DNA from: Clostridia bacterium
Lineage (GTDB): Bacteria; Bacillota; Clostridia; UMGS1883; UMGS1540
NCBI GenBank assembly: GCA_017442155.1
Contig: JAFSAU010000030.1
Coordinates: 49,088 to 113,087 of the forward strand
Length of the DNA stretch: 64,000 nucleotides
Direction: 5' to 3'
Each line of letters opens with the position of its first letter. Positions within the stretch are counted from its first letter, which is position 1. This document shows, piece by piece, positions 8,223 through 57,961 of this stretch. The translations under genes were made by a program, and so were the position numbers. The notes beneath the pieces were generated by a model, which was given only the letters and a program-made list of their open reading frames with translations, did no database searches and was not told the DNA's origin.

Positions 8223-8298
<76 letters not shown>

Positions 8299-24448: not shown

Positions 24449-25319
24449 CGTAGTGCACCCACTTTTTCTCATATTTCTTCTGCAGCCATGTTACCAAAGC
24501 TACGAAGATGAAGCTGACCCAACCAAGGGCAGCGGCCTGACCAACCTGTGGATTTGCCCCCCACATAAGGCTGTAAATTCTGGAGTTAACAACATATACG
24601 TCTGCACCCGTGCTTTCCGTTAACATATAAAAGCTTTCGAAAACCTGCAGTGCGCCGGAAATACCGGTAATCATCAGGAAGAAAATGGTCGGCGTAAGAA
24701 GCGGAACCGTAATGCGGAAAAACTTCTTGACTGCGCTGGCACCGTCAATATCTGCGGCTTCAATAACATCCGTGCTGATAGCCTGCAGACCTGCAATCAG
24801 ATAAATCGTAGCACCGCCGACGCCTTTCCACAACGTCATTAAAACAATACCAACGATAACCTCCACCCAGTTGCCGGAATACGTAAAGGCAAAGGGCCCG
24901 AGGCCGATAAAGCCAAGAATTGTATTCAGCACACCGCCTCTGGGGTTATACATACGGGCCCAAACAAGGGCTGTTGCTGTTGTAGGCGTAAGACCCGGTA
25001 TGTAATAGATAACGCGGAAGACCGAAAGACCTTTTACCTTCTGATTCAGAAGTACAGCGAGTACACAGGCCAGAGATATCTGAAGACTCTCCAGCATAAG
25101 TGCATACACCCATACATTTCGGAAGGCTATCCATGTTTCCGGTTTCGTAACCGTGCCTATGTAGTTACGGAGACCTATCCAGCGTGCCGGACGCATCATG
25201 TCATAGGTCGTGAACGAGTAGTAGATGGAGATAATCAGTGGCACCAACGTAAAGCATAACAAGCTAATGATGTATGGTGATACAAATAGCCATCCCCAGC
25301 GCATGTGTTTTCTGGTCAT
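24441..25319 (-). CDS. Carbohydrate ABC transporter permease, MalF type
   Basis: The second permease of the pair, 292 residues. It opens with the common MalF-like segment WGWLFVSPYIISLLCFTLVPLIISIYYSF and has an EAA loop in AISTDVIEAADIDGASAVKKFFRITVP (about 195-220). It is the first gene of the two-gene operon, with promoter about 170 bp upstream. The missing binding protein is unusual since it normally precedes this gene; the upstream 550 bp hold no remnant of one. Confidence 0.9.
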   Translation of the reverse strand: MTRKHMRWGWLFVSPYIISLLCFTLVPLIISIYYSFTTYDMMRPARWIGLRNYIGTVTKPETWIAFRNVWVYALMLESLQISLACVLAVLLNQKVKGLSVFRVIYYIPGLTPTTATALVWARMYNPRGGVLNTILGFIGLGPFAFTYSGNWVEVIVGIVLMTLWKGVGGATIYLIAGLQAISTDVIEAADIDGASAVKKFFRITVPLLTPTIFFLMITGISGALQVFESFYMLTESTGADVYVVNSRIYSLMWGANPQVGQAAALGWVSFIFVALVTWLQKKYEKKWVHYDA

Positions 25320-33062: not shown

Positions 33063-33258
33063 TATTCCCCCGCGATTGCCGTCCGACAGCAAAATTTCAA
33101 CCTGCACGGCAGGTGGGTGGTATAGTTTCTGCTTACGGGTTACCCTCATACCGGCCTTTCGGGCGGGGGGCCTACACACCACAGAAACGGTCTGCCTCCC
33201 TTTCATTTTAGTGTTGGCTAAAATTCAATACCGAGGCTAACGAACACCGCAGGGATTA
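33063..33258 (-). ncRNA. ssrS: 6S RNA
   Basis: A global regulator RNA that mimics an open promoter and binds sigma-A RNA polymerase. The closing stem pairs AATCCCTGCGGT at the 5' end with ATCGCGGGGGAAT at the 3' end. The 5' side continues as UGUUCGUUAGCC, like UGUUCGCAAGCGGGCC in E. coli 6S, and the 3' side reads GUCGGACGGCAAUCGC, like CUGCGGCGGCAUCUC there. The length of about 196 nt, a large central region and a strong terminator all fit. Its promoter lies in the end of DUF1292. It sits between DUF1292 and a membrane protein gene; E. coli ssrS likewise has a gene (ygfA) behind it. Exact ends are estimates; a covariance-model search was not possible. Confidence 0.8.
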
Positions 33259-51929: not shown

Positions 51930-53114
51930 TTATTCTCTTCCGGGAATAACTACTTTATCTAAAATCCCGGTGAGCTTTGCTATAGTCATGCCGTAATTGG
52001 TAATCGGCACGCCTGCAGCCTCTGCCGCCGCTATCCTGGAAAGCACATGCCGACGGTTAAACATGCAAGCTCCGCAGTGAATTATCAGGCTGTAGGGCGA
52101 CAAATCTGCGGGGAAATCCTCTCCGCTAACCACGTCGACCCCAAGCCCCTGTCCCACTTTTTTCCGGAGAAGTGCCGGTATTTTTACCCGCCCGATATCC
52201 TCCGAGGCCGGGGCATGGGTGCAGGCCTCCGCAATCAATACTCTATCCTCTTCCTGCAGTTTCTCAATTCTCTCTGCTCCACGCATGAAAATTTCTGCAT
52301 CCCCTTTTACATCTGCCAGCAAAACTGAAAAAGAGGTCAGTGCAACGCCCCGGGGCGTTTTTTCATACACTGTTTTAAACACCTGGGAATCCGTAATAAT
52401 CAGGTCCGGCTTTTTCGCGCACCTTTCAAGAGCCGCCTCCATTGTCTCCGGTGTGACAGCTGTAGCAATACAGCCCCGGTCCAAAAGTTCCCGTATCGTC
52501 TGTACCTGGGGCAGAATCAGCCGCCCCTTCGGTGCCGAATCGTCCTGGGGCATTACCAGCATTACATGGTCGCCGCTTTTGCAGACCCGGCCCGTAATGC
52601 TCCGTTCCTCTGCACTAAAGGGCATAAGTGCTTTTCTTACAGCTTCAAACCCTGTTTTTTCTGCGGCACTGACCCGCAGCACCGCCCTGCCGCATGCGGC
52701 CTCTGCCGCTTCAGCCACGCCCTCCGTCTCCCCGACATCCGTTTTATTCAAAACGGGCAGGACGGGGATTTTTCGTGTTCTGCACTTATCTGCCCACGCG
52801 GCATCCTCTTCACTGAACACCCCGGCAAAAACCAATATAGCCACATCGGTTTTCTCCAATGCCTTTTCCGTCTTTTCCACGCGCCGGAGTCCTAACACTC
52901 CCGTGTCATCAAATCCGGCAGTATCAATCAGCACACAAGGGCCGACACCCCGGATTTCCATGTTTTTATACACCGGGTCCGCAGTCGTGCCCAAAACGTC
53001 CGACACGATCGCCACATCCTGCTCTGTAAGTGCATTGATAAATGAAGATTTTCCGGCATTTCGCCGTCCGAATATCCCGATATGCAGCCTTGTACCTCTC
53101 GGTGCCTGTTCCAT
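51930..53114 (-). CDS. hydF: [FeFe]-hydrogenase maturation GTPase HydF
   Basis: The scaffold that carries the diiron subcluster to the hydrogenase. 394 residues. GTPase domain at the start: P-loop GIFGRRNAGKSSFINAL, GTTADPVYKN, DTAGFDD and LNKTD. The C-terminal cluster-binding domain has EACTHAP and IIHCGACMFNRR, the CxH...HCxxC ligands. Start at 53114 after GGGAGGGG; the open extension upstream is not used. It is the last gene of the operon, 13 bp after hydG. Confidence 0.94.
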   Translation of the reverse strand: MEQAPRGTRLHIGIFGRRNAGKSSFINALTEQDVAIVSDVLGTTADPVYKNMEIRGVGPCVLIDTAGFDDTGVLGLRRVEKTEKALEKTDVAILVFAGVFSEEDAAWADKCRTRKIPVLPVLNKTDVGETEGVAEAAEAACGRAVLRVSAAEKTGFEAVRKALMPFSAEERSITGRVCKSGDHVMLVMPQDDSAPKGRLILPQVQTIRELLDRGCIATAVTPETMEAALERCAKKPDLIITDSQVFKTVYEKTPRGVALTSFSVLLADVKGDAEIFMRGAERIEKLQEEDRVLIAEACTHAPASEDIGRVKIPALLRKKVGQGLGVDVVSGEDFPADLSPYSLIIHCGACMFNRRHVLSRIAAAEAAGVPITNYGMTIAKLTGILDKVVIPGRE

Positions 53115-53127
53115 AGCTTCCCCTCCC

Positions 53128-54540
53128 TCAGAACCGGAAATCACGACTGCCCTCGTGCATCCGGGCAATATTCTCTTCCGCAATTTTCCGCACCTTTTCG
53201 TTCGGAATCTGCGTAAGCTCCTTCTGTATCAAGGCTTCACCGATTTTCCTTGTTTCGGGAGAAGCATAGTCCTCCAGATATTCCTGCAGTGTCATCAACG
53301 CATTGGGTTGACAGCAGTTTGCAATCTGTCCTGCCTTCACTAACTGCATAAACCGGTCTCCGGTGCGGTTTTCCCGGTAACATGCTGTACAGAAGCTTGG
53401 AATATACCCCTGCTTCATCAGCCAGTTTACCACCTCATCCAGCGTCCGTCTGTCTTCAATTTCAAACTGAATGGATTCATTATCCTCTTCTGCATACCCG
53501 CCGACACTGGTGCGTGAACCGCCGGAAAGCTGGGATATGCCGATTTTCAGGAGCTTTGCACGGGTCTCTGCCGACTCACGGGTGGACACAATCATACCGG
53601 TGTAAGGCACGGCCAGACGAATCACCGCCACGATTTTTTCAAAAATATCATCAGCCACAGCATTGGAGAATTTATCTACTTCCACGCCGTTTGCCGGACG
53701 AATACGGGGTACGCTGATGGTGTGCGGCCCCACACCCATTGCCGCCTCCAGGTGCTCCGCATGCATCAGAAGGCCCACGAAATCATACCGGTAGAGATTG
53801 AGCCCAAACAACACGCCCAGACCCACGTCATCAATCCCGCCCTGCATCGCCCGGTCCATAGCCTCCGTGTGATAGGCATAGTCGCTCTTCGGTCCGGTGG
53901 GATGCAACATTTCATAGTTTTCCTTGTGATATGTCTCCTGGAACAGAATATACGTGCCGATTTTTGCTTCGTGCAACGCCCGGTAATTCTCCACCGTCGT
54001 CGCGGCAATATTGACGTTAACCCGGCGGATAGCACCGTTTTTATGTTTAATGCTGTAAATGGTATCAATGCTTTCCAGTACATAGGAAATAGGGCTGTAG
54101 ACCGGATGCTCACCGGTTTCCAGTGCCAGCCGCTTGTGTCCCATATCCTGCAGGGCAATGACCTCCCGGCGTATCTCCTCCTGCGTCAGCTTTTTCCTTG
54201 GAATTTCCTTATTTGACATATGGTACGGACAATAGGTACAGCCGTTCACGCAATAATTGGAAAGGTAAAGAGGCGCAAACATGACAATGCGGTTTCCGTA
54301 TAGCCGCATTTTCAGCTCGTTTGCCACCTTGAAAATCCGGGCATTTCTGTCCTCTAAGGTGCATTCCAGAAGCACTGCCGCCTCCCGATGGTCCAGGCCG
54401 CCTCCCTTTTCCGCCTTATCAATCAGCTTGTCAATGAGCGCACCGTCTTCCTTGTGCAACGCCGCATACTTCAGCGTCTCCTCTATTTCCGTATGGTTAA
54501 TAAATTCCTCCGCCCGCGGCGATTTTACATCATATTTCAT
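53128..54540 (-). CDS. hydG: [FeFe]-hydrogenase maturase HydG (tyrosine lyase)
   Basis: A radical-SAM enzyme that splits tyrosine to give the CO and cyanide ligands of the H-cluster. 470 residues. The SAM cluster is CVNGCTYC (CX3CX2C) and the C-terminal auxiliary cluster ligands are in FCTACYRENRTGDRF. Adjacent to ThiH in family, but the C-terminal cysteines fix HydG. It overlaps hydE by four bases. Confidence 0.95.
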   Translation of the reverse strand: MKYDVKSPRAEEFINHTEIEETLKYAALHKEDGALIDKLIDKAEKGGGLDHREAAVLLECTLEDRNARIFKVANELKMRLYGNRIVMFAPLYLSNYCVNGCTYCPYHMSNKEIPRKKLTQEEIRREVIALQDMGHKRLALETGEHPVYSPISYVLESIDTIYSIKHKNGAIRRVNVNIAATTVENYRALHEAKIGTYILFQETYHKENYEMLHPTGPKSDYAYHTEAMDRAMQGGIDDVGLGVLFGLNLYRYDFVGLLMHAEHLEAAMGVGPHTISVPRIRPANGVEVDKFSNAVADDIFEKIVAVIRLAVPYTGMIVSTRESAETRAKLLKIGISQLSGGSRTSVGGYAEEDNESIQFEIEDRRTLDEVVNWLMKQGYIPSFCTACYRENRTGDRFMQLVKAGQIANCCQPNALMTLQEYLEDYASPETRKIGEALIQKELTQIPNEKVRKIAEENIARMHEGSRDFRF

Positions 54541-55550
54541 TGATAATCTCCCCTTACATTTTTTATTTCATATCCGATATCCTGTATCCTTTTACGGACC
54601 GTATCTATCGTTTCAAAGGCCTTATTGTCATAAATGGCATACTTTCCGCGCACACACGGCGGCGAAAGGTTGGGCATTACCACATTCGCCCCCGCCCGGA
54701 TTCCTTCCTCCCGCCCGTCAGGCGAAAGCGTTGCCAGAGCTGTTGTTGCAGGCAGTAATGCCCGCGGGTGCATCAGGCGCAAGATGGAAAGCAGCTTCAG
54801 CGTATCTTCCAGCCGCCCCGCCGAAAACCCGGCAAAGGGTGTTTTTGACTGGGGAATGAACGGCCCTATGCCTATCATATGGGGCCGGAACTCCTGTAGA
54901 AACAGTAAGTCCTCGGCTATGGTTTCCACCGTCTGATACGGTGACCCCACCATGAAGCCTGCGCCCACCTGATATCCCAGCTCCTTCAGATTCCGCAGAC
55001 ATTCCATCCGGGAGGAAAGCGTCATTTCGGGCGGATGCAATTTTTCGTAATGGTCCGGACTCGCCGTTTCATGCCGCAGAAGATACCGGTCTGCCCCTGC
55101 CTCCCGCAGTCGTGCGTAGGATTCCCGGCTGCGTTCCCCTAATGAAAGCGTCACTGCCGCCTCCGGAAACCGCTGTTTCAGACCCGAAACAATGCGGCAG
55201 ACCCGTTCATCCGTAAAGTAGCCGTCCTCTCCCCCCTGCAAGACAAACGTGCGTATGCCGTCTTCGTAGCCTGCCGCACATGCGGCAAAGATATCCTCAT
55301 CAGAGAGCCGGTACCGTGCCGCCTCGGCCGAACGCCGCAGGCCGCAATACAGGCAGTTATTTTTGCAGTAGCTGCTGATTTCTACAAGGCCACGCAGATA
55401 TATGGTCTTTCCAAACACACTGTCTGCCCTTTTCCTTGCCTCTATGCGTAGAAAAGCATTTTCCGTATCCGTTTGCAGTAAACACAGAATTTCCGCTTTC
55501 GCAAGTGCATCTCCCTGTACCAGCCGCTCTGCCACCGCCCGGGTCGTCAT
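54537..55550 (-). CDS. hydE: [FeFe]-hydrogenase maturase HydE (radical SAM)
   Basis: A radical-SAM enzyme making the dithiolate-bridge precursor of the H-cluster. 337 residues. SAM cluster motif CKNNCLYC in the block LVEISSYCKNNCLYCGLRR, and the conserved FVLQGGEDGYFTDERV. It overlaps both the small regulator gene upstream and hydG downstream by four bases. The hydrogenase structural gene hydA is not within the window. Confidence 0.94.
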   Translation of the reverse strand: MTTRAVAERLVQGDALAKAEILCLLQTDTENAFLRIEARKRADSVFGKTIYLRGLVEISSYCKNNCLYCGLRRSAEAARYRLSDEDIFAACAAGYEDGIRTFVLQGGEDGYFTDERVCRIVSGLKQRFPEAAVTLSLGERSRESYARLREAGADRYLLRHETASPDHYEKLHPPEMTLSSRMECLRNLKELGYQVGAGFMVGSPYQTVETIAEDLLFLQEFRPHMIGIGPFIPQSKTPFAGFSAGRLEDTLKLLSILRLMHPRALLPATTALATLSPDGREEGIRAGANVVMPNLSPPCVRGKYAIYDNKAFETIDTVRKRIQDIGYEIKNVRGDYQ

Positions 55551-55792
55551 AGTTTCGCGTAAACGGTTTTAGCCGTTACGCCCTCCAGCATCCCAAGCTT
55601 CCCGGAAATAGCCGCCGTCACAGACTCCGGTGCATCCACCACCACACTGATGACGGATACCTTCTTTTCCCTGTACGGGATTCCCATTCTTCCCACAATA
55701 TAGTCGCCTGCTTCGTGCAGGATATGATTGATTTTTTCTGCCGATTCCGTATCTTCTACAATAATGCCGATATGGGCAAGCCTATTTTCCAT
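55547..55792 (-). CDS. TM1266-like putative regulator of the [FeFe]-hydrogenase system
   Basis: An 81-residue ACT-like protein of the TM1266/iron-only hydrogenase system regulator family, found beside hydEFG genes. It reads MENRLAHIGIIVEDTESAEK, with GMPYREKKVSVISVVVDAP-like strands following (here MGIPYREKK). Start 55792 is set by AGGAGG. A longer frame to 55894 is open but runs through a terminator hairpin. It is the first gene after the operon promoter and leader. Biochemical role unknown. Confidence 0.88.
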   Translation of the reverse strand: MENRLAHIGIIVEDTESAEKINHILHEAGDYIVGRMGIPYREKKVSVISVVVDAPESVTAAISGKLGMLEGVTAKTVYAKL

Positions 55793-55958
55793 GTTGTTTC
55801 CTCCTATACAAAAACCGCTCCATCTTTGAAAGACGGAGCGGCCGGATCGCCGTACAAAAACAGAATCCCAATACACCAGATAACGGTGCACCATGTTCGT
55901 TTTCTATGTTTTTCCGCCTTTCAGGTAGGGACGAACCCGCGCTGTCAGGTTTTACATC
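55793..55958 (-). promoter_or_regulatory. Leader of about 165 nt of the hydrogenase maturation operon, candidate riboregulator
   Basis: Between the start point near 55955 and the first gene. It has a GTTCGT...ACGAAC pair enclosing CCCTACCTGAAAGGCGG, a CACC...GGTG pair, an AAAAACA/TGTTTTT pair that spans them, and the terminal terminator. It does not match the riboswitch consensus patterns I could recall. Function as attenuator is inference from layout. Confidence 0.5.
55815..55841 (-). terminator. Intrinsic terminator within the leader of the hyd operon
   Basis: On the minus strand CCGCTCC (55841-55835) pairs with GGAGCGG (55821-55815), with more pairs from TCTTT/AAAGA inside, followed by TTTTTG. 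It stands between the operon promoter (55962-55991) and the first RBS (55804-55799), the classic place for a transcription attenuator. Confidence 0.75.
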
Positions 55959-55961
55959 TAT

Positions 55962-55991
55962 AGTATACCATACCGTTGCACAGTTTGTCAA
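55962..55991 (-). promoter_or_regulatory. Promoter of the hydrogenase maturation operon
   Basis: Minus strand: TTGACA (55991-55986), 18-bp spacer, TATACT (55967-55962), with an extended -10 TGG before it. Confidence 0.8.
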
Positions 55992-56061: not shown

Positions 56062-57003
56062 CTAATATCCGATTTGTCTTGCCAGCTGCCGAAGTCTGTC
56101 CGCACCCCGGCGCAGTGCCGCAATTTCCCCGTCGGAAAGAGGGATTTCCACGCTTCGGGCAATTCCGTGAGACCCTATGGCTCTGGGGATGCTCAGACAG
56201 ACATCCCGGATGTCATATTCACCGTCACAAAGTCCCGATACGGTCAGAATTGAATTTTCTCCGCCACCAAGTGCACGGACAATACGCTCTGCCGCCAGCG
56301 ACACCGCATAATATGTGGCCCCCTTCTTCTCAACGATTTCATAGGCCGCATTTTTCACGCTCTGTCGGATTTCTTCAAGGCTCGCACCGCTGCACTGTCC
56401 GCACCGATTGCAAAACTCGCCGATTGGAAGTCCGGCAATCATAGCGGAATGCCACGCCGTCACCTCACTGTCCCCATGCTCTCCCAGGACGTAGGCATGG
56501 ATGTTCCGCGCATCAATATGGGTATGCTCCGAAAGCCGGGCCCGAAGCCGGGCCGTGTCCAACACTGTGCCGCTTCCGATTACCCTTACCGGAGACAACC
56601 CCGTGATTTTCAGTGTAATATACGTCAGAATATCCACCGGATTTGTCACCGCCAGCAGCAGCACCTCTTTGGGACAGTACCGCATAACCTCTTGGAGAAT
56701 ACTTTTAAAAACAGAAGCATTCCGCGACAGCAAATCCGTTCGGGATTCCCCCGGCTTTTGTGCCGCGCCGGCCGCCAAAATAATAATATCCGCATCCTTA
56801 CAATCCCGGTACTCTCCGGCGTACACCTGCATGGGACGAACAAAGGGAACGCCATGTCCGATGTCCATAGCCTCCCCTTCTGCTTTGTCTTTATCAATAT
56901 CAATCAGAACGATTTCCCGTACACTTTCTTTTACCAGAAGTGTATATCCGATAGTAGCACCCACAAAGCCCGTTCCGATAATTACAACCTTTCTGTCTTT
57001 CAA
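56062..57003 (-). CDS. ldh: L-lactate dehydrogenase
   Basis: Reduces pyruvate to L-lactate with NADH in fermentation. 313 residues. NAD motif IIGTGFVGATIGYTLL; the substrate loop is GAAQKPGESR with Gln at the position that separates lactate from malate dehydrogenases (Arg in the latter); catalytic His is in LGEHGDSE. It is the third gene of an amidohydrolase-AEC-ldh group, 16 bp after the transporter. No clear terminator before the next promoter. Confidence 0.92.
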   Translation of the reverse strand: MKDRKVVIIGTGFVGATIGYTLLVKESVREIVLIDIDKDKAEGEAMDIGHGVPFVRPMQVYAGEYRDCKDADIIILAAGAAQKPGESRTDLLSRNASVFKSILQEVMRYCPKEVLLLAVTNPVDILTYITLKITGLSPVRVIGSGTVLDTARLRARLSEHTHIDARNIHAYVLGEHGDSEVTAWHSAMIAGLPIGEFCNRCGQCSGASLEEIRQSVKNAAYEIVEKKGATYYAVSLAAERIVRALGGGENSILTVSGLCDGEYDIRDVCLSIPRAIGSHGIARSVEIPLSDGEIAALRRGADRLRQLARQIGY

Positions 57004-57019
57004 GTCAATTCACCTCATA

Positions 57020-57961
57020 TCAGAGGATACCCAGATTCTTGAGAATAAATACGCCAAAAAAGACAAATACAAAACTCATAAATGTACTGATTAAAATAAT
57101 GTTGCCGTACATATCATAATCGCCGTTCATGTTGCGCGTCATGGCATAGCCTGCCACCGCCGCAGGGGAAGCCCAGAACACGAATAGTGTGCCGAGTCCC
57201 TCGCCCCGTATGCCCAAAAGATATGCAATCCATGTAAAAATCACTGTAAAAACAATGGTTTTCAGCGCCGATGCCCCGAAGGATAATCCGAAAGTTTCTT
57301 TGAGGTTTGCGTATTTCATGGAAATCCCGATGGTAATCAGCGAAAGCGGTACACACATATCGCTGATATATGTAAGAGTTTTGTCAATGGCAACCGGCAG
57401 ATGTAGTTTACAAAGATACGCAAGCGTACCTGCCATTGCCGACAGAATAATCGGGTTTTTCGCAATGCCGATAAGGGTTTTCTTTATACCGCCGCCATGA
57501 TTTAAAAAGCTTTCCAGACAAATAACGGAAAAAACATTCAGAAGAATCATGCCGACCGCCAAAATCACCGTGCCGTTTGTCGCCGCCACACTGCCGAACA
57601 AGGCTTTTGTAAGGGGCAGACCGAGTATGGCGTAATTGGCGCGGAACGCCCCTTGGGAAAACGCCGCCCGGCGGCGGTTATCCTTTGTGACAACATGTGC
57701 CAGTAGCCAGGAGGCAATGAACATAACCGCAATGGAAATGACCGCAATCAGAAGAAGTCTTCCGTCAAAACTGGTGCCGATTTCAGAATTTGCAATGTCC
57801 TGAAAAATCATAATGGGCAAAACAAATCGAAATACAACCGTTGTGGCCTTCTCCGCAAAAGTATCATCTGCAATTTTCCATTTCCGAAGGAGGATTCCCA
57901 GTCCCACCAAAAGGAATATGGGCACTACGCCGTTAATGCAAACCATTAAATTTTCTGTCAT
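57020..57961 (-). CDS. AEC-family transporter (auxin efflux carrier type)
   Basis: A membrane carrier of 313 residues with about ten helices, PF03547-type. Conserved segments: VPIFLLVGLGILLRKW at the start, FRANYAILGLPLTKALFG in the first half, and FWASPAAVAGYAMTRNMNGD near the end. Relatives move organic acids such as malate or lactate. Between an amidohydrolase and lactate dehydrogenase genes, a carboxylate substrate is likely. Start overlaps the amidohydrolase stop (ATGA). Confidence 0.88.
   Translation of the reverse strand: MTENLMVCINGVVPIFLLVGLGILLRKWKIADDTFAEKATTVVFRFVLPIMIFQDIANSEIGTSFDGRLLLIAVISIAVMFIASWLLAHVVTKDNRRRAAFSQGAFRANYAILGLPLTKALFGSVAATNGTVILAVGMILLNVFSVICLESFLNHGGGIKKTLIGIAKNPIILSAMAGTLAYLCKLHLPVAIDKTLTYISDMCVPLSLITIGISMKYANLKETFGLSFGASALKTIVFTVIFTWIAYLLGIRGEGLGTLFVFWASPAAVAGYAMTRNMNGDYDMYGNIILISTFMSFVFVFFGVFILKNLGIL

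Follow-up and report, generated by a model that had tools for sequence, protein, structure and literature searches.

The window analysed here, a stretch of 64,000 nt from a Clostridia bacterium contig, carries on its minus strand an operon in the order TM1266-hydE-hydG-hydF, each product of which scores above its own NCBIfam cut-off, with ldh located upstream of the operon's leader on the same strand (Table 1). The predicted promoter, TTGACA-18-TATACT, matches the consensus at 11 of 12 positions and has TG ahead of the -10. Beyond it come a leader of about 163 nt and a terminator-like hairpin of 14 pairs, seven of them G-C, which runs into TTTGTATAGG and then AGGAGG. The first-pass annotation had described this arrangement as a near-consensus extended -10 promoter, a leader of about 165 nt, an intrinsic terminator adjoining a ribosome-binding site, and a hydrogenase maturation operon, and each of these elements was confirmed. 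A candidate leader peptide, read from an ATG at 55894 in a frame that continues into TM1266, was rejected on inspection, as no Shine-Dalgarno was seen for it and the conserved element described below lies upstream.

Table 1. Features of the TM1266-hydE-hydG-hydF locus, in window coordinates.
Feature	Positions	Strand	Basis
Sigma-70-type promoter, extended -10 (predicted)	55962..55991	-	Consensus scan, 11/12 matches
Conserved 38-nt hairpin	55912..55949	-	R1 37 bits, R2 32.9 bits, class covariation
GAAAGGCGGA, predicted antiterminator 5' strand, overlapping P1 3' arm	55913..55922	-	Complementary to 55837-55828; conserved across leaders; partial-transcript fold
UCCGUCUUUC, predicted antiterminator 3' strand within terminator 5' arm	55828..55837	-	Sequence, arm comparison, partial-transcript fold
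Intrinsic terminator (predicted): stem 55843-55813 and U-rich tail	55808..55843	-	Hairpin scan, folding
TM1266-family gene, 81 aa, putative RNA-binding regulator	55547..55792	-	PF21699, TIGR03959; NikR C-terminal-like fold
hydE	54537..55550	-	TIGR03956
hydG	53128..54540	-	TIGR03955
hydF	51930..53183	-	TIGR03918

Pattern scans of the region give numbers near chance (12 terminator-like sites against 10.2 expected, and 16 promoter-like sites against 10.5), and the leader stretch, with the terminator included, folds with a z of -2.74, three of 200 shuffles being equally good. The feature stands out from chance because the same element recurs and covaries in relatives. The first 38 nt of the window leader form a hairpin composed of P1 (CCU/AGG), a GA/AA loop, P2 (CAG/CUG), an upper loop, P3 (GGG/CCC) and a terminal loop UUCGU, and the same element is visible by reading in the upstream DNA of many relatives. 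Leaders were collected from TM1266 loci of 60 relatives (30 loci), from 80 named records and from 391 genomes of the class, for which 30 of the many TM1266 matches were taken as loci. A covariance model of 38 positions (R1) was built from 18 leaders and gives 37 bits to the window copy, itself one of the 18 seed sequences; a second model (R2), built from 79 hits, gives it 32.9 bits with filters off. Matches to R2 were also found in records named Clostridium frigoris, Acetobacterium bakii, Sporomusa, Victivallis and Lentisphaeria, and in an alphaproteobacterial MAG.

Across this widespread class the element follows the pattern YCUGA-P2-RA-P3-loop-P3'-GA-P2'-RA-AGG, in which two UGA/RAA internal loops, in a pseudo-two-fold arrangement, separate three short helices that covary. 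The two internal loops are one loop turned round: UGA lies on the 5' strand in the lower loop and on the 3' strand in the upper one, with RA opposite in each. Among the 77 distinct rows of our alignment (A6), GA occurs in 66 and 50 of the two loops and RA in 74 and 60, with all four features present in 31; the window copy has the canonical GA/AA in its lower loop and GC/UA, not RA/GA, in its upper one. Pairing cells make up 89.1% in these rows compared with 66.7% (sd 1.0) after shuffling, and the covariation score is 0.633 compared with 0.205 (sd 0.015), with none of 500 shuffles as high and a slid partner reaching at most 0.18, in an alignment that was fitted to the structure and whose seed was chosen partly by pairing. 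For that reason we also made a selection by sequence only (CTGA, then 20-32 nt, then RAAGR), which retained 73 of the 133 distinct leaders, and examined the 4-nt arms adjoining these words: 2.62 of four arm positions pair, compared with 1.80 when arms are re-dealt (sd 0.097; maximum 2.18 in 5000), and perfect arm pairings number 25 compared with a re-dealt mean of 3.9. A first MAFFT alignment (A1), in which the hairpin arms were misaligned, was left out. The conservation check proposed in the first-pass annotation, alignment of leaders from relatives, thus finds a conserved, covarying element.

No Rfam 15 family matches the hairpin class at its gathering score, either in the window, in 12 loci or in the L082 and L046 leaders, under strict and permissive thresholds alike. 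The single match in the 12-locus search is a TPP riboswitch away from the leader, and the only two gathering hits in the window are a 6S RNA (33063-33258, minus strand) and a tRNA (8223-8295, plus strand). The best sub-threshold match is the PyrR binding site RF00515, with 25.1 bits in L046 and 16.3 in the window against a gathering score of 54; membership of that family was rejected because what matches is the overall layout and the terminator.

The 3' end of the hairpin, GAAAGGCGGA, is complementary to UCCGUCUUUC in the 5' arm of the terminator, and this exclusive pairing, either terminator or antiterminator, is kept in relatives. In a scan of the 133 distinct leaders the motif was found in 64, a few of them (for example L041) without R2 confirmation, and a terminator follows it in 50. 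In these 50 the predicted antiterminator duplex averages -12.97 kcal/mol with the leaders' own arms compared with -10.05 for re-dealt arms (sd 0.36; best of 300, -11.05), and control duplexes from windows upstream of the motif average -5.6 (49 leaders). Partial transcripts ending in the terminator loop are predicted to hold the AGG in the antiterminator in 42 of 50 leaders and to keep P1 in two, the antiterminator not being the favoured partial fold in eight; for full transcripts the mean probabilities are 0.71 for the terminator, 0.53 for P1 and 0.22 for the antiterminator. Given the shared strand and the partial folds, anything that binds the hairpin would be expected to favour termination. 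The attenuator half of the earlier reading as 'attenuator or riboswitch' is therefore supported and taken further, with a conserved 5' element and an antiterminator that excludes the terminator; the small-molecule half is, on the evidence below, not favoured over a protein sensor. Comparison of sequences gives good support to the RNA class and to the attenuator logic predicted for it. Separately, the antiterminator duplex predicted to overlap the terminator of one leader (L016 1749-1823, minus strand) is unusually strong, at -25.9 kcal/mol.

The hairpin occurs at two kinds of site within one regulon, before TM1266 and before hydG. R2 matches at E up to 0.5 number 111 in the 133 TM1266 loci, 103 of them upstream of TM1266 or hydG and eight elsewhere. 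At hydG in relatives the hairpin lies directly before the gene and runs into the Shine-Dalgarno, typically ACUGACGGGGAAGnnnnnCUGACCCnAAAGAAAGGA: among 18 sites listed, 16 abut the hydG Shine-Dalgarno, one (L027) has a terminator-like hairpin between the site and hydG, and the last (L016) directly adjoins the start of a gene for an ABC-transporter lipoprotein. Eleven of the 133 TM1266 loci have an R2 hydG site, and further ones were seen by eye; in the window itself neither the R2 search nor inspection revealed a hairpin directly before hydG. We predict from these positions that hydG provides a second, translational platform for the hairpin. A scan of whole genomes with the RNA model found matches in at least 11 of 291 genomes, ten upstream of TM1266 and one upstream of hydG; this is a lower bound because the scan's first look was too lossy, only 150 or 21 candidates being scored per genome and the known site in the window genome being missed.

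Several other placements were observed. In genome G039 the hairpin (31.1 bits; L016 1374-1411 and L236 7045-7082, both minus strand) lies at the ABC-transporter lipoprotein gene directly after TM1266, which is followed by permease- and ATPase-like genes and may offer a clue to the signal. In L099 (2919-3350), L241, L242 and, weakly, L243, the hairpin and hydG are separated by a TM1266 gene of opposite orientation, and the predicted hydG leader therefore runs antisense through TM1266. In Faecalicatena contorta an R2 match of 23.7 bits after TM1266 (L067 3408-3445, plus strand), which may be due to chance, precedes a gene resembling the gamma subunit of 2-oxoacid:ferredoxin oxidoreductases. Two weaker R2 matches in the window, at 25032-25101 (16.5 bits) and across the ldh start at 56991-57024 on the minus strand (14.3 bits, E 0.29), were taken as chance. 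At hydrogenase structural loci, of which 30 were searched out of 64 PF02906 matches, R2 found nothing with an E of up to 1.

The first gene of the operon encodes a protein of a family long annotated as a putative regulator. Its assignment is clear (TIGR03959, 109.5 bits against a cut-off of 60.8; PF21699, 108.3 against 27), and PF21699 is the only domain match in its 81 aa, no DNA-binding domain being recognised. The predicted model (mean pLDDT 93.8) has a beta-alpha-beta-beta-alpha-beta order, and its nearest solved structures are 2nzc, four chains of TM1266 from Thermotoga maritima released in 2006, and the C-terminal domains of NikR; for 2y3y, a NikR C-terminal nickel-binding domain, the match has E 4.5e-6 and a TM-score of 0.86, and for 2bj1 sequence similarity is marginal (E 0.14). 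TM1266 thus has the fold of the NikR nickel-binding domain but lacks the ribbon-helix-helix DNA-binding domain, and so does not qualify as a NikR. Among 180 distinct TM1266 sequences R35, G37, P39, G67 and K75 are invariant, and positions 4, 43 and 65 are basic in 97-99%, making five near-invariant basic residues; the same sequences contain no conserved cysteine column. A small regulator of this kind would fit a pseudo-symmetric RNA target, and we infer that it binds RNA.

The distribution of the hairpin follows that of TM1266. It lies near TM1266 or hydG at 84 of the 133 TM1266 loci, many of which are rows of the model, and was seen near neither gene at 49; among 40 further TM1266 loci, 20 have an R2 match at E up to 0.05 and 20 have none. 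A set lacking TM1266 was formed from the 154 of 391 genomes without a PF21699 match, 153 of which were searched for HydG. Here R2 matched at three (L183, L193 and L195) of 38 full-length HydG loci (HydG E up to 1.1e-200), and these were also the sole matches among all 50 HydG-like loci fetched from the set. Even a sensitive search did not find TM1266 in these three genomes, whose incompleteness may explain the discrepancy: in G040 the contig ends 296 nt after hydG, and in G275, of the same genus, TM1266 lies about 2.7 kb beyond the start of hydG, while G010 and G022 are incomplete drafts from genera in which TM1266 is often apart from hydG.

The converse case is given by 30 TM1266-positive genomes without a clear hairpin near TM1266, in which a search for HydG gave 16 loci at E up to 1e-170, ten of them with an R2 match at E up to 0.05. 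In the eight genomes with TM1266 on another contig, the hairpin was found at hydG or hydE in all eight, two of them weak (19.2 and 17.2 bits). In G021, where TM1266 shares the contig at a distance of about 2 kb, R2 finds no match and a long-loop variant is visible; L281, L282, L294, L295 and L296 gave no R2 hit. Fisher's test of eight of eight (TM1266 unlinked) against three of 38 (none detected) gives p = 6e-7, and within the same four families (eight of eight against two of 18) p = 3e-5, values that are only indicative because the genomes are related. We regard this association as a strong statistical lead, and because the hairpin co-occurs with TM1266 even when the two are not adjacent, a small molecule is not favoured over a protein sensor.

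We therefore propose, with moderate confidence, that TM1266 is an RNA-binding autogenous regulator of PyrR-like logic, stabilising the hairpin so as to bring about termination and to block hydG translation; the proposal builds on the hairpin, its covariation, the two kinds of site, the exclusive pairing and the co-occurrence with TM1266, all seen in comparisons of sequence. In the absence of a binder, GAAAGGCGGA would form the antiterminator with the terminator's 5' arm, and transcription would continue into the operon. Bound TM1266, probably a symmetric oligomer seated on the pseudo-two-fold UGA/RAA loops, would hold the hairpin, allowing the terminator to form and switching the operon off, and at hydG in relatives the held hairpin would mask the Shine-Dalgarno region, preventing translation. 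The affinity of TM1266 for RNA is probably set by a maturation-pathway signal that it senses, such as a metal, a precursor of the H-cluster or some other ligand of its NikR-like domain. The binding, the direction of the switch and the signal are what we infer.

The main rival, which we consider unlikely, is that the hairpin is the aptamer of a small-molecule or metal riboswitch, in which a ligand stabilises it to cause termination or Shine-Dalgarno occlusion and TM1266 merely co-travels. The same anatomy would serve; two hits occur in tandem before TM1266 at 13 of the 133 loci, an arrangement known for riboswitches, and the hairpin persists in the three genomes where TM1266 was not detected. 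Such a riboswitch leaves unexplained, however, why the hairpin follows an unlinked TM1266, conserved positions are few and mostly in the UGA/RAA loops and P1, and no Rfam riboswitch matches. More improbable still is the opposite sign, whereby binding of the element by TM1266, or by a different RNA-binding protein, would activate through antitermination in the manner of LicT or SacY. The element does overlap the antiterminator strand, and BglG-type targets are likewise short hairpins with two internal loops and an overlapping terminator, but TM1266 lies outside that protein family, and the hairpin and antiterminator use the same AGG, so that a held hairpin removes the antiterminator; location on the hydG Shine-Dalgarno likewise suggests repression, the sign expected for the hyd leader being opposite to that of LicT and SacY. 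That the leader is no switch, and only a constitutive terminator or a control on ldh read-through, we consider very improbable: single-sequence scans do give about as many terminator-like sites as shuffles, but the hairpin and its exclusive pairing are conserved, and ldh read-through is not needed because a predicted promoter of the leader's own has its -10 ending 12 nt before the conserved element.

Returning to TM1266 as a proposed repressor, the nearest precedent is PyrR attenuation, with which the leader would share a regulator encoded by the operon's first gene, a hairpin competing with an antiterminator, and both leader and intergenic sites. The leader is predicted to work in that way, but it is not a member of the PyrR RNA family: the window operon has no pyr genes, the helices and loops differ, and TM1266 is unrelated to PyrR, a protein of phosphoribosyltransferase fold. 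Rex controls the same genes in C. bescii and C. thermocellum (PMC6391272, PMC8457756), but acts on DNA at the promoter. In the C. bescii account Rex acts upstream of hydG and the preceding gene, and the gene at the TM1266 position is called a CopG family transcription factor whose regulon its authors describe as unknown and unpredicted (PMC6391272); the C. thermocellum study lists both hydG and the TM1266-position gene as Rex targets (PMC8457756). In Thermotoga neapolitana a TM1266-type gene, hydE and hydG are listed among expression changes under CO2 (PMC7039931). Attenuation in acetogenesis genes was sought and not clearly seen in the A. bakii transcriptome, the available sections of which contain no mention of a TM1266 leader that we saw (PMC6239172). 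A term search of four further papers (PMC11109978, PMC6429828, PMC8632094, PMC7266159) found no report of an RNA element at TM1266 or the hyd maturation genes. Nor did we find a report of one before these genes in the literature searched, in which few subscription papers were covered.

The iron unit of [FeFe]-hydrogenases that carries CO and cyanide is made by HydG and HydE, and its supply should therefore match demand; to our knowledge, the H-cluster maturation pathway has no known regulator beyond Rex at the DNA level. With the hairpin, TM1266 gains a precise candidate target, a 38-nt RNA at about a hundred loci, in hosts that include acetogens and other hydrogen-metabolising bacteria. We tentatively suggest that TM1266 could be the founder of a new family of RNA-binding regulators, in which a NikR-type ligand domain without the DNA-binding part would read the UGA/RAA hairpin and sense an H-cluster precursor (for example the HydG product) or iron, exerting feedback on [FeFe]-hydrogenase assembly through operon transcription and hydG translation. 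If the riboswitch alternative were right, the element would be a new orphan riboswitch for H-cluster assembly; if the TM1266 proposal is true, the hairpin would stand for a new class of attenuator and its regulator for a new family of RNA-binding proteins.
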